30,616 nucleotides of DNA, taken from positions 1 to 30,616 of the IMG/VR virus record IMGVR_UViG_3300008952_000207; one strand, written 5' to 3'. This DNA comes from a virus. The translations under genes and the position numbers were made by a program. Within the stretch, counting starts at the first letter, position 1. Each line of letters starts with the position of its first letter. Positions 5,888 to 19,527 of the stretch are shown piece by piece. A model generated the notes under the pieces. The model was given only the letters and a program-made list of their open reading frames with translations, searched no databases and was not told the origin of the DNA.

Positions 5888-6958
5888 TTAGTTGGAATCA
5901 GAAGCGAACATCTTGACCATCATCGAGGCGACGGTTCGACCATCAGCGGTCTCGCCCTTATGCAGAGCAACCACATTCTCCTGTGGACCCTCGCCCAGAA
6001 CACCCCACAGCTTCATCGCAACCTCGGACGGAAGCGTAACGAAGTAGTTAACAACGTTCTGCATCTTCTCGTCTTCGATCTTCTCCTTGAAGATGCCCGA
6101 AGCCTGGAACTTCTCGATAAGAGCACAGTGGTCGTTGATACCAAAATCATCCGTCTTGGAGATCTCGCCACGGTCAACAATGTCTTCGATAGTGACCTGT
6201 GACTCGTACTTGGCGCAGAAGTCATTGAACGATACAGCAGCCTCGAATCCAATGAAGCCGGAAGCAAGGTGGAACACCACGGGTCCAGCAGAAGCCTTGG
6301 GATCCTCGGTCAGACCAGCGTTAACAAGGCAATCGTTGAAACGCTTCCACGAACGACGGGAAGGGTAAACCTTGTTAGGCTCGAACTCTCCATCATGCTC
6401 AAGGTGTGAGCGATTCTGGTTAACAAAGTCCCAAATAGGTCCAGAAACATTGTCCTTTGCCCAATCGAGCCAGTCTTCAGCAGTCGGCTCCAGATCGAAC
6501 ACGGTATAGCGATCAAGCTCGGCGGGATCCATCTCGCCAACCTGATACTGCGCGCCATGCTCGCCACCGTTGACGGCAGCAATGATCAGAGTCTCCGGGT
6601 GAAGAACCTGACCAGCGATCTTGCGCGAGTCACAAAGCTCGAAGAGTCCCTGTCGAACCTCAGTCACGGCTCGGTCAACCTCATCGAGAAAGAGAACCAC
6701 GGCTCGACTACATGCAGCCGCCAGGAACTCAGGCGGGCACCAAGAGGTAACGTCGCCATCGGTGGAGGGAAGACCAAGCAGATCGCCCTCAGTCATCTGC
6801 GAAGCGCGGCGTTCCACAACGGGAAGGCCAAGATTGGCAGCAATCTGATAAACAATCTCACTCTTGCCAATACCATGGCGGCCTCGAATGAGAACCGGCT
6901 TGCGTACAGCAAGAACGTGGGGAGCAATTTCATTGAATGTCTTGAAGTCGATAGCCAT
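5888..6958 (-). CDS. MoxR-type AAA+ ATPase
   Basis: 356 residues. Walker A is GRHGIGKS (26-33), Walker B VVLFLDE (87-93) and the sensor-1 Asn is in AAVNGG (about 130). The fold order and the GLPSTDGDVTSWCPPEFL insert before Walker B fit MoxR-family ATPases rather than replication clamp loaders. The predicted role is ATP-driven remodelling together with the downstream VWA/metallopeptidase protein, about 240 bases on. ATG 6958 has AGGAGGCC upstream; the promoter at 6988-7014 drives it. Its phage substrate is unknown. Confidence 0.9.
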   Translation of the reverse strand: MAIDFKTFNEIAPHVLAVRKPVLIRGRHGIGKSEIVYQIAANLGLPVVERRASQMTEGDLLGLPSTDGDVTSWCPPEFLAAACSRAVVLFLDEVDRAVTEVRQGLFELCDSRKIAGQVLHPETLIIAAVNGGEHGAQYQVGEMDPAELDRYTVFDLEPTAEDWLDWAKDNVSGPIWDFVNQNRSHLEHDGEFEPNKVYPSRRSWKRFNDCLVNAGLTEDPKASAGPVVFHLASGFIGFEAAVSFNDFCAKYESQVTIEDIVDRGEISKTDDFGINDHCALIEKFQASGIFKEKIEDEKMQNVVNYFVTLPSEVAMKLWGVLGEGPQENVVALHKGETADGRTVASMMVKMFASDSN

Positions 6959-6987
6959 GATGGCCTCCTGTGTGTCTTACAAGTATA

Positions 6988-7014
6988 TAGTAAGCACAAA
7001 CAAGTATGAATTAA
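6988..7014 (-). promoter_or_regulatory. Promoter, TTAA/extended -10 type
   Basis: -35 TTAATT (7009-7014), 15-base spacer ending in GTGC, -10 TTACTA (6988-6993). The -35 includes the TAA stop of 7011-7211. Drives the MoxR gene. Confidence 0.75.
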
Positions 7015-7211
7015 CGATTAGTTTCAGAAAAACCGTTGAAAACGATATTCTTGAATGATCCTGGGATGATAGCGATAAGGTTTAGTTCCCCGTAACGCTC
7101 GCTGGCAATTGCCCACGCCTTCTCTTTATCATGCGGTAGACTGGTCTCTCGTATGTGACTGTAGCCACTGCCATACGTCTCGCCGGATACAATTACTGTC
7201 CAAGGTTTCAT
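7011..7211 (-). CDS. Hypothetical 66-residue protein
   Basis: ATG at 7211 after AGGAGAGAGAT. The sequence (MKPWTVIVSGETYGSGYSHI..., then HDKEKAWAIASERYGELNLIAIIPG) suggests a beta-alpha-beta fold resembling small phage proteins of the type W-x-V-x-V...A-W-x-x-A. No active-site motif. Confidence 0.65.
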   Translation of the reverse strand: MKPWTVIVSGETYGSGYSHIRETSLPHDKEKAWAIASERYGELNLIAIIPGSFKNIVFNGFSETNR

Positions 7212-8160: not shown

Positions 8161-8417
8161 TAGGGCGCGCCGGTTTCGGGGTCATATAGTCCAGCCTCAT
8201 AATCACCTCCAACAATATAGTACAAGGGTGCTGGAGAGAGGTAAGTATACTGTGTACGATCTGTAACCTCCCACAAACCTAAAGTCATCTCATGTGTGTT
8301 AAATGCACAACGATCTCCGATAACTTTAGTAACCATATAAAGTTTCTCTCGCCTGCTATAGCCTTCACGGCGTACTAGATCACCAACTTTAACAGTGTGT
8401 ATATTATTCATCGGCAT
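8157..8417 (-). CDS. K-x-G-D-L-V array protein
   Basis: 86 residues from ATG 8415-8417, nine to ten bases after GGAGG inside the upstream gene (overlap 14 bases). A second ATG follows two codons later. The N-terminus MPMNNIHTVKVGDLVRREGYS carries the module a few residues in, followed by KLYMVTKVIGDRCAF and a strand-rich middle. The tail DYEAGLYDPETGAPY is unlike the other members. Predicted small SH3-like barrel; role unknown. Confidence 0.65.
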   Translation of the reverse strand: MPMNNIHTVKVGDLVRREGYSRREKLYMVTKVIGDRCAFNTHEMTLGLWEVTDRTQYTYLSPAPLYYIVGGDYEAGLYDPETGAPY

Positions 8418-8577
8418 GGTTGATAACCTCCAAATCGCGCGCCAATTGATCAAGCTCCCAACCAAAGGAGCCAAAAACTTTAACAATTCCGCTGGGTTGT
8501 AGGCGTTTGGTGCTAATAACGACAGCCACCTGATCTTTATCCCAATAAGACGCTTTTACTAAATCACCGACTTTCAT
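8404..8577 (-). CDS. K-x-G-D-L-V array protein, 57 residues
   Basis: MKVGDLVKASYWDKDQVAVV runs into strands ending WELDQLARDLEVINHADE. ATG 8575-8577 overlaps the upstream gene by 14 bases, the recurrent junction of this array. The C-terminal codons for LEVIN double as the ribosome-binding site (GGAGG) of the next gene. The pattern K-x-G-D-L-V...V-A-V-V-I...V-K-V-F-G...W suggests a five-strand SH3-like barrel. Confidence 0.7.
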   Translation of the reverse strand: MKVGDLVKASYWDKDQVAVVISTKRLQPSGIVKVFGSFGWELDQLARDLEVINHADE

Positions 8578-13534: not shown

Positions 13535-13740
13535 GCTAGCACCTTTAGAACTCTGCGTTCCGGGCGAGTCACCTTGCCATCCGGCCAATATACGTGACAC
13601 CGGATACCGACACACTTGGTGATAATTCCGGGCGCAGAAAATCGGCTTTTGTCGGTCCAAAGCCGCTCATCCATGGATATCTCTTCCCAATTGAGAACAA
13701 CAAGATTTCCAACAACAGGCTTCTTAGGTTTCGTTTCCAT
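13531..13740 (-). CDS. V-V-G-N-L-V array protein, leaderless
   Basis: 69 residues: METKPKKPVVGNLVVLNWEE, then APGIITKCVGIRCHVYWPDG and a basic end VTRPERRVLKVLA. ATG 13738-13740 lies seven bases past the -10 of the promoter at 13748-13774; no ribosome-binding site. The module is shifted about eight residues by an N-terminal KPKKP extension. Confidence 0.68.
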   Translation of the reverse strand: METKPKKPVVGNLVVLNWEEISMDERLWTDKSRFSAPGIITKCVGIRCHVYWPDGKVTRPERRVLKVLA

Positions 13741-13747
13741 ATTTATA

Positions 13748-13774
13748 TTATAAGCACGGATTAGAGATGATTAA
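13748..13774 (-). promoter_or_regulatory. Promoter giving a predicted leaderless mRNA
   Basis: -35 TTAATC (13769-13774), 15-base spacer ending in GTGC, -10 TTATAA (13748-13753). Seven bases to ATG 13740. It lies inside the 3' end of 13761-13907. Confidence 0.78.
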
Positions 13775-13929: not shown

Positions 13930-14016
13930 TGGTAGCCAAGGTGGGACTCGAACCCACAAGCCCATGAGGGCGACAGATTTTAAGTCTGCTGCGTATGCCA
14001 ATTCCGCCACTCGGCC
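13930..14016 (-). tRNA. tRNA-Leu (anticodon UAA)
   Basis: 87 bases with encoded CCA. Acceptor GGCCGAG/CTTGGCT (two wobbles), anticodon loop CTTAAAA reads UAA, long class II variable arm CGCCCTCATGGGC, T arm GTGGG-TTCGAGT-CCCAC. It decodes UUA/UUG. Promoter at 14028-14054. Confidence 0.95.
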
Positions 14017-14027
14017 ATGTATTTATA

Positions 14028-14054
14028 TTGTAAGCACGCATTGTGCTGAATTAA
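14028..14054 (-). promoter_or_regulatory. Promoter for tRNA-Leu
   Basis: -35 TTAATT (14049-14054), 15-base spacer ending in GTGC, -10 TTACAA (14028-14033). The tRNA 5' end lies 12 bases downstream of the -10. The left copy of the 19-base repeat (14056-14074) starts one base past the -35. Confidence 0.78.
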
Positions 14055-14055
14055 G

Positions 14056-14074
14056 TGGCACGCCCGACAGGATT
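14056..14074 (-). repeat. 19-base copy of the tRNA-Arg 3' end (left copy)
   Basis: TGGCACGCCCGACAGGATT on the plus strand, identical to 14563-14581, the last 19 bases of tRNA-Arg including CCA. The flanking bases differ. The stop codon of the intervening gene overlaps it by two bases. Confidence 0.9.
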
Positions 14075-14549
14075 AGATAAGCTCAGCAATCTCTGTTTTC
14101 CAGATAGACGTATCATCTACTGCAATTCTTTGTATTTTCTTTAAACAGTCTGGGTAGTTGTTATCTCTCGCGAGATTCTTAGCAAGAGCAAAGCGAAAAT
14201 CATCTTGCTTTTTTGTGTGCTCACTAATGTCAACTGATATTATATCAAACTGTTCAATAAGGTAATATCTATTCTTCTTAGAAGAACCAGAGTCTCGTGA
14301 CTTCTGAAGCTCTACTTTCAAATCTCCATTTGCATACTTGGTATTCCTAGCTCTTTTGTGCTCTACCAAATATTCTTTCTGCATGTATTTGATTTTAAAA
14401 TCGGCATCTCCATTATCGGGAGAACACTCTACGTGTGCCACTTTATCACTTAAAAAATTAAACATGCTATATTCACTTAAATTGCCTTTAAGCGCAGTGA
14501 TAAATCTAGGTGAATTTTTTTCACAATAAGATATAAATTGTCTATTCAT
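14073..14549 (-). CDS. PD-(D/E)xK nuclease-like protein between tRNA repeats
   Basis: 158 residues. The core GDADFKIKYMQKEYLVEHKR has Asp50 (in D-A-D), then Glu63-His-Lys65, fitting the PD-(D/E)xK pattern D-x(n)-E-x-K with a hydrophobic strand before E-x-K. A basic loop follows (RARNTKYANGDLKVELQKSR). This is the layout of restriction-like and some homing nucleases; cleavage activity is inferred. ATG 14549 has only a weak ACGAG site and lies 13 bases after tRNA-Arg. The gene and its flanks sit exactly between two copies of the tRNA-Arg 3' end, so it looks like an inserted element. It lacks the array's start motif. Confidence 0.65.
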   Translation of the reverse strand: MNRQFISYCEKNSPRFITALKGNLSEYSMFNFLSDKVAHVECSPDNGDADFKIKYMQKEYLVEHKRARNTKYANGDLKVELQKSRDSGSSKKNRYYLIEQFDIISVDISEHTKKQDDFRFALAKNLARDNNYPDCLKKIQRIAVDDTSIWKTEIAELI

Positions 14550-14562
14550 AATAAATCTCGTT

Positions 14563-14639
14563 TGGCACGCCCGACAGGATTCGAACCTGTGACCTACGGC
14601 TTAGAAGGCCGTTGCTCTATCCAACTGAGCTACGGGCGC
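14563..14639 (-). tRNA. tRNA-Arg (anticodon UCU)
   Basis: 77 bases with encoded CCA and discriminator G. Acceptor GCGCCCG/CGGGCGT (one G-T), D arm GCTC-AGTTGGATA-GAGC, anticodon stem ACGGC/GCCGT with loop CTTCTAA (UCU), T arm ACAGG-TTCGAAT-CCTGT. Decodes AGA/AGG. No dedicated promoter is seen; it follows 14664-14894 by 24 bases. Confidence 0.96.
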
Positions 14640-14663
14640 AAAAATATTCATAACACCATCATA

Positions 14664-14894
14664 CTAAATTTGGTTTATTAAGTCAAGAGCGGAGTCAGAT
14701 AAAGTATGCTCATAGTTAAACTTTGGAAATAGTACCACGTTATAACTGCCTGTGCAGTACTGTTCCTTCTTCCTAACAATTATTCCGTATTCCCCTTCAA
14801 TTGTGTATTGCATCGGGATGCAGCATTGTGTTTCTTTATCGATCCTCGATACCGAGGGTTGCCAATTACATTTTACTAGATCACCGACTTTCAT
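14664..14894 (-). CDS. K-x-G-D-L-V array protein
   Basis: 76 residues: MKVGDLVKCNWQPSVSRIDK, then GEYGIIVRKKEQYCTGSYNV and ALDLINQI at the end. It overlaps the upstream gene by the recurrent 14 bases. It is the last array gene before tRNA-Arg, and its D-L-I-N end retains part of the junction sequence although a tRNA rather than a gene follows. Confidence 0.72.
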   Translation of the reverse strand: MKVGDLVKCNWQPSVSRIDKETQCCIPMQYTIEGEYGIIVRKKEQYCTGSYNVVLFPKFNYEHTLSDSALDLINQI

Positions 14895-18537: not shown

Positions 18538-19527
18538 TCATAATGTATGTGGATTCCCAGAAAAATGAACTTCTAAATTATTTCCTAACTTGTTTTGTAG
18601 CCACTTTTCCATATCTGTACCGGAAGAAAAATCTACCGTTTCACTGTTATTAATTAGTTTCCAAACTTTTACTTCTTCTAGAATATCAACCTTATTGAAC
18701 ACAAGCTTGTTAACTCCGTTAATCTTGGCGGCGCGCTCTAGTAAATTAAAGTCCATCCAGTTACATTGGCGCGCGCGACCTGTGGTTGCTCCGTACTCTT
18801 CACCAGCATCCCGAATTTTTTGAAATATTTTTTCCTTTGGCTCGAAGTCTTTGTATCCAGAGTAGGTTTCATATAGCTTGGCCACGCCCCATACATCTCT
18901 AATCCAAGATGGCGGGATAGCGTTGAGCAACGCTCCTGCGCTCGTACAATGGCTAGACGTCACGTATGGGTAGTCGCCATGGTCTATGTCCAACCCAAAG
19001 CCTTGTGCGCCCTCACACAGTATCCTCACGGCCTCTCCAGACTCATGGAACTCTTCGTATAAGTTAATCAAATATGGCTCAAGTTCGGGAACATCCTTTG
19101 CGCGCACTCCCACGCGCGCGTACTTGTCTCTGTATGCGGGCCCATTGCCTTGCTTAGTTGTGCCTAACTTGCTATCCTTACCGTCCTCTTCAAGATGCTT
19201 TGTAGTGATTACATGCGTGTTATCAGCTATGTATAGCAGGCCTTGTGTATTAATACCGCCAGCCTCTAGCTCTTCAATTTCCTTAAAGAATTGAGCGGGG
19301 TTGACTACGCAGCCTGAACCTATTATCGACTTAACACCGTGGAATACTCCGCTAGGTATATGATGGGTAACGAACTTTTTACCTTCGTGATAAATCGTAT
19401 GGCCTGCGTTGCAGCCTCCGTTATATCTCAGTACGTGCGTGTACTTCTTATATTTACAAAGATAGTGCGTAACCTTTCCCTTACCACAGTCACCATATTG
19501 CAGATCGACAATTATATCAGCTAACAT
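18538..19527 (-). CDS. Adenylosuccinate synthetase family (PurA/PurZ-like)
   Basis: 329 residues, about 100 shorter than bacterial PurA (about 430). Conserved parts: phosphate loop GDCGKGK (12-18), N-A-G-H-T (40-44), I-P-S-G, G-T-T-K-Q-G-N-G-P-A-Y, CEGAQG, DIDHGDYPYVTSS, ATTGRARQ-x-x-W-x-D and N-K-V-D for guanine recognition. Family members join aspartate to IMP (PurA) or dGMP (PurZ, the first step to 2-aminoadenine). As I recall, phage PurZ replaces the catalytic Asp of G-D-x-G-K-G by Ser; here Asp13 is kept, favouring PurA or an intermediate type, while length and the divergent C-terminus (FSGNPHTL instead of S-T-G-P-D-R) favour a PurZ-like lineage. ATG 19527 behind AAGGAGCAGTAA; strong promoter at 19560-19588. 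Confidence 0.88.
   Translation of the reverse strand: MLADIIVDLQYGDCGKGKVTHYLCKYKKYTHVLRYNGGCNAGHTIYHEGKKFVTHHIPSGVFHGVKSIIGSGCVVNPAQFFKEIEELEAGGINTQGLLYIADNTHVITTKHLEEDGKDSKLGTTKQGNGPAYRDKYARVGVRAKDVPELEPYLINLYEEFHESGEAVRILCEGAQGFGLDIDHGDYPYVTSSHCTSAGALLNAIPPSWIRDVWGVAKLYETYSGYKDFEPKEKIFQKIRDAGEEYGATTGRARQCNWMDFNLLERAAKINGVNKLVFNKVDILEEVKVWKLINNSETVDFSSGTDMEKWLQNKLGNNLEVHFSGNPHTL

Follow-up and report, generated by a model that had tools for sequence, protein, structure and literature searches.

The window analysed here, a stretch of 30,616 nucleotides of viral DNA, carries behind its tRNA-Arg gene a 507-bp unit that is best explained as an insertion of one gene, acquired recently, between phage tRNA genes. 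The anatomy of this insertion is real, precise and unusual. The unit (14056..14562, minus strand, or just as well 14075-14581 if the other copy of the repeat is counted as part of it) is absent from two related viruses, L006 and L007, and is foreign in composition, with a GC content of 34% inside it against 44% across the source window. The most likely reading, which we hold with little better than even confidence, is that a solitary restriction-type nuclease acts as a free-standing, intronless homing gene that enters the tRNA-Arg end.

Anatomy of the unit and its empty sites

The unit is bounded by two copies of the last 19 bases of tRNA-Arg. This 19-mer (TGGCACGCCCGACAGGATT) occurs exactly twice in the window, at 14056-14074 and 14563-14581; no third copy with up to three mismatches was found elsewhere in the window, and only 0.01 matches are expected in shuffled sequence even with 3 mismatches allowed. 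The first copy (14563..14581, minus strand) runs from the T-loop to the CCA and is part of the working tRNA-Arg(TCT) gene (14563..14639, minus strand), which is complete according to ARAGORN and Rfam (tRNA, 74.6 bits). The second copy (14056..14074, minus strand) is a displaced tRNA-Arg 3' end, which the empty relatives lack. With the two copies aligned in register, the repeat extends to 22 bp with one mismatch, its copies lying 507 bp apart (TCGAATCC versus TCTAATCC, minus strand), and this single mismatch creates the TAA stop codon of a 158-codon open reading frame (ORF), the sole gene between the copies (14073..14549, minus strand). The displaced copy starts at the second base of that stop codon (14073-14075), giving an overlap of two bases. 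A sequence-only reading of the window had described the perfect 19-base recurrence, the complete tRNA, the single intervening gene with the repeat beginning within its stop codon and the lack of an integrase in the unit, and in all of these it was correct.

Downstream of the unit, in the occupied as in the empty state, lies tRNA-Leu(TAA) (13930..14016, minus strand; called by ARAGORN, with an L006 counterpart at 6951-7034). It is preceded by a predicted promoter-like element of repeat family D1 containing TATAAATA (14020..14042, minus strand), which has a near-copy at 13740-13762 and is common to L006, L007 and L008. Upstream of tRNA-Arg there is a predicted sigma-70-like promoter, TTGACT-17-TATGAT (14658..14686, minus strand; 10/12 consensus match), and the same motif is present in L006. 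This promoter could drive the nuclease gene and is the likely source of its transcripts. No intron was detected at the locus, where the two tRNAs are the only Rfam matches above the gathering score.

Relatives were gathered by means of two genes nearby, which encode a deaminase and an adenylosuccinate synthetase. The window's own synthetase (18538-19527, minus strand) is a 329-aa protein with '2-aminooxy adenylosuccinate synthetase' (PurZ-type) as its best PHROG, and the Asp of its GDCGKGK motif is kept. L006, whose synthetase is 98% identical, has 39 bp between the tRNA-Arg end and tRNA-Leu(TAA), and L007 has 41 bp between the tRNA-Arg end and tRNA-Leu(CAA). Both are natural empty sites of the kind that the sequence-only reading had proposed to look for, in which tRNA-Arg is followed directly by the tRNA-Leu promoter and the extra 19-base copy is missing. 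When the 507-bp unit was deleted from the window by script, the product aligned to L006 and L007 without gaps across the junction. The nuclease gene is therefore optional: two relatives have the conserved site in its empty form, as is looked for in a homing gene. The 19-bp copies are identical while the spacer next to the displaced copy and that of L006 disagree at ~8 of 37 positions (about 20%, a hand count from the alignment), which argues that the insertion, or a later conversion, was recent. Morganella phage MP1 was considered as a further empty site and rejected, its tRNA-Leu and tRNA-Arg being adjacent in the reversed order.

The content of the tRNA-Arg/tRNA-Leu interval differs between L008 and L009, and the interval is therefore variable. 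L009 has a tRNA-Pro and another ORF there, and L008 has an unrelated 102-aa ORF on the opposite strand, without a tRNA-end repeat. The L008 ORF (7810-8155) is membrane-like, and the interval appears as an insertion hot spot. Elsewhere in L008, a tRNA-like sequence downstream of tRNA-Met (8370-8446), uncalled by ARAGORN, may be a degenerate tRNA.

The nuclease and its restriction-type relatives

Searched alone, the 158-aa protein gave no match in Pfam above the cut-off, PHROGs, PADLOC, NCBIfam, PDB sequences or the phage collection. Entry to its family came through a plasmid protein, Methanothrix pH6Ac WP_014271926.1 (29% over 146 aa, E 2e-9), and homologue matches reached E 3e-20. A DNA pattern derived from the shared residues was scanned over 84,980 genomes and returned 70 loci, about 57 of them encoding relatives; one candidate, L118, was rejected as a chance match to the pattern. 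The scan motif contained A[AV]C, which the window protein lacks, so closer cellular relatives may be missed.

Across 50 aligned relatives, K65, Q82, R85, R94, Y96, F101, D102 and W150 are invariant and E26, D50 and E63 nearly invariant. The catalytic codons among these lie on the minus strand at 14472-14474 (E26), 14400-14402 (D50), 14361-14363 (E63) and 14355-14357 (K65). With the 50-sequence family alignment, AlphaFold gave a model with a pLDDT of 92 and a pTM of 0.86, including strands at 51-55 and 58-71; prediction from the single sequence, without the alignment, gave a pLDDT of 37. The best Foldseek matches of the model in the PDB are chains of 2OST, the homing endonuclease I-Ssp6803I (E 1.1e-3, TM 0.55, a moderate match), followed by archaeal Hjc resolvases, and the leading matches are PD-(D/E)xK nucleases. 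A profile search of PDB sequences returned 2OST as its sole match, a weak one (E 0.2), and 19 of the 50 relatives match Pfam PDDEXK_5 (PF11645) at E<=0.1 (best 1.2e-5), with no match for the window protein itself. Conservation and the modelled fold together confirm the window protein as a PD-(D/E)xK nuclease, an assignment that had been suggested from its core residues; the modelling returned no non-nuclease fold.

The restriction-modification kinship of the nuclease was unforeseen in that earlier reading. Approximately 16 of the ~57 relatives directly adjoin an M.PvuII-like methyltransferase gene, and these occur in archaea, several bacterial phyla and a Dolichospermum phage; on viral contig L193 a relative is also found next to a methyltransferase. 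For the Methanothrix methyltransferase, matches were obtained to M.PvuII (E 1e-100) and to Pfam N6_N4_Mtase. In an actinobacterial branch of ~390 aa the nuclease is fused to an N-terminal MTaX1, a methylase-associated domain, and such 390-aa fusions were seen in L174, L188, L125 and other genome-contig loci. Judged by gene context, the cellular relatives are putative restriction-type genes. The PD-(D/E)xK genes beside M.PvuII-like methyltransferases (L116 1220-1831, L117 2650-3321, L178, L182, L193 and others, from archaea, bacteria and phages) are labelled hypothetical proteins in both annotated records examined, and probably represent uncharacterised type II restriction systems.

The M.PvuII-linked nucleases (the Methanothrix plasmid protein, Dolichospermum phage XAI95176.1, L178, L182 and others) and the MTaX1-fused branch are true homologues, having the same E/D/ExK and Q-R-R-Y-FD-W residues as the phage copy. 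However, an M.PvuII-like methyltransferase or an MTaX1 domain accompanies these relatives, whereas the phage copy has neither and sits on a very long tree branch (5.7 changes per column), which makes its exact place in the family unsure. The adjacent methyltransferase of a type II restriction-modification system is missing: a search of the 30.6-kb window gave no M.PvuII-like match, and the window proteins scanned gave no methyltransferase match. Among the cellular relatives there is no consistent linkage to tRNA genes.

CAGCTG is the M.PvuII site, and the window contains none (3.9 expected). Its avoidance was rejected as a sign of this enzyme because several nuclease-free relatives also lack CAGCTG, and GAGCTC and CTCGAG are equally absent. 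The window also lacks CGTACG and CACGTG. None of the relatives checked (L037-L064) contains GAGCTC or CTCGAG either, which suggests that phages of this group avoid sites of host restriction.

Homing and the alternatives to it

Intronless homing is taken as most likely because of the mORF-like order of the unit, the precedent of T4 SegB and the promoter before tRNA-Arg. The unit would encode an I-Ssp6803I-like PD-(D/E)xK endonuclease of restriction-type kin, co-transcribed with tRNA-Arg. The enzyme would cut the tRNA-Arg/downstream region in related phages without the unit, and repair templated by the occupied genome would copy the gene across. The unit would bring its own version of the last 19-22 bases of the tRNA, leaving the tRNA whole and the old 3' end downstream. 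What the analysis shows is the insertion with its duplication, the nuclease fold with its conserved active-site residues, the kinship and the foreign composition; from these we infer the expression of the nuclease, its cleavage of DNA, its target and its homing.

It is well established that free-standing endonucleases of phages can spread by cleaving relatives that lack them. Homing endonucleases of the PD-(D/E)xK type are likewise an accepted family (PMC6083498). I-Ssp6803I, the best match by both profile and fold, is of similar size (150 aa versus 158 here) and is also associated with a tRNA gene (PMC1995217). However, it resides in a group I intron of the Synechocystis tRNA-fMet and is specific for the anticodon region, whereas the window gene is intron-free and free-standing behind a tRNA 3' end that is duplicated. 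The T4 segB gene fills the gap between tRNA-Ile and tRNA-Arg and is preferentially inherited, and homing by SegB has been shown (PMC2988022). Like the window gene, it encodes a free-standing endonuclease and lies next to tRNA-Arg in a gap between phage tRNA genes, but it belongs to the unrelated GIY-YIG family and lies 5' of tRNA-Arg; neither segB nor the seg gene in the Aeromonas Aes508 tRNA cluster is accompanied by a tRNA-end repeat. In layout the unit is like fungal mitochondrial mORFs (Allomyces, Glomus), in which an endonuclease brings a substitute 3' end and the native end is left downstream, in the same order of host gene, substitute 3' end, endonuclease ORF and displaced native 3' end (PMC3630166). 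The mORFs differ in that the enzymes in Glomus are LAGLIDADG or GIY-YIG, the hosts are protein-coding genes and the substitute ends are longer and diverged from the native ones; in the window the host is a tRNA, the end is 19 bp and the copies are identical. In view of these precedents, the suggestion of a new type of homing nuclease was too strong. The nuclease superfamily is already known, and the mode of life would be too if homing were confirmed. A more far-reaching proposal, which we make only tentatively, is that the gene descends from a type II restriction nuclease that lost its methyltransferase and now spreads by itself, without an intron, into the 3' end of a phage tRNA, for which it is specific and of which it brings a substitute copy. 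If true, this would to our knowledge be the first known homing element that rebuilds a 3' end at a phage tRNA.

Several observations count against homing, among them the moderate fold match and the singleton distribution. The sole carrier of this nuclease copy is one virus in 2.9 million viral contigs (two further viral_contigs records are identical), and a search that included a degenerate motif matching the window protein and most family members found the unit at no other site and no other tRNA in those contigs, where the earlier reading had looked to the same gene recurring at other tRNAs. The required target also counts against it. All sequences of up to 20 bp across the empty-site junction also occur in the occupied window, the shortest one that does not having 21 bp (GAATCCTGTCGGGCGTGCCAC), and the T-arm of tRNA-Arg is intact in the occupied allele. 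Since shorter junction sequences persist in the occupied window, a homing enzyme would have to recognise 21 bp or more of sequence spanning the junction, or else depend on sequence differences between phages. In addition, no pseudo-palindromic target stood out in the junction-spanning windows. Of the original idea of an element that targets and rebuilds a tRNA 3' end, the precise insertion and the rebuilt end stand, but the targeting and homing found no backing in a second occurrence or a pseudo-palindrome.

The serious rival, although we consider it rather unlikely, is passive capture: a single illegitimate or microhomology-driven insertion of a solitary restriction-type nuclease gene, with the 19-bp duplication as a by-product of repair and no homing. 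If the gene is retained at all, it would then be for an attack on the DNA of competing phages or of the host. The restriction-type relatives and the singleton distribution fit such an event, as does the L008 interval, which takes cargo anyway and without a tRNA-end repeat. However, a 19-22 bp duplication that ends exactly at the tRNA 3' end, with an ORF spanning from repeat to repeat, is tidier than typical illegitimate events. A free 3'-end copy (15-mer or longer) within 2 kb downstream was found for 0 of 420 tRNAs in 106 related viral loci, and the window has no M.PvuII-like methyltransferase to tame a short-site enzyme.

A lesser and distinctly improbable rival is that a tyrosine integrase supplied in trans placed a small element, or the remnant of a satellite, at the tRNA-Arg 3' end, with the repeats as its attL and attR. 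Repeats that run from T-loop to CCA form the classical attachment core of integrases, and the restored tRNA agrees with this, but no integrase was found among the window proteins scanned, the unit is one ORF only, with its stop inside the repeat, and no larger version of the element turned up in the viral contigs searched. Least probable is that the unit is ancestral and was deleted in L006 and L007 by recombination between the 19-bp repeats: such a deletion would yield exactly the observed empty sequence, but the site is empty in both of two relatives whose tRNA-Leu types differ, all other viral records searched lack the nuclease, the GC content is foreign and the unconstrained repeat copy shows no drift.

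Even with no homing, the locus would still be a clean case of one inserted gene for which empty sites exist in nature. If the nuclease does home, it would make a compact system for testing how restriction enzymes become selfish homing genes, since its cellular relatives include some that have a methyltransferase and some that do not. Homing would also mean that invasion of a phage tRNA 3' end needs neither an integrase nor an intron and can proceed by copying 19 bases. Should the proposed passage from restriction to homing be true, it would represent a direct transition within one traceable family.
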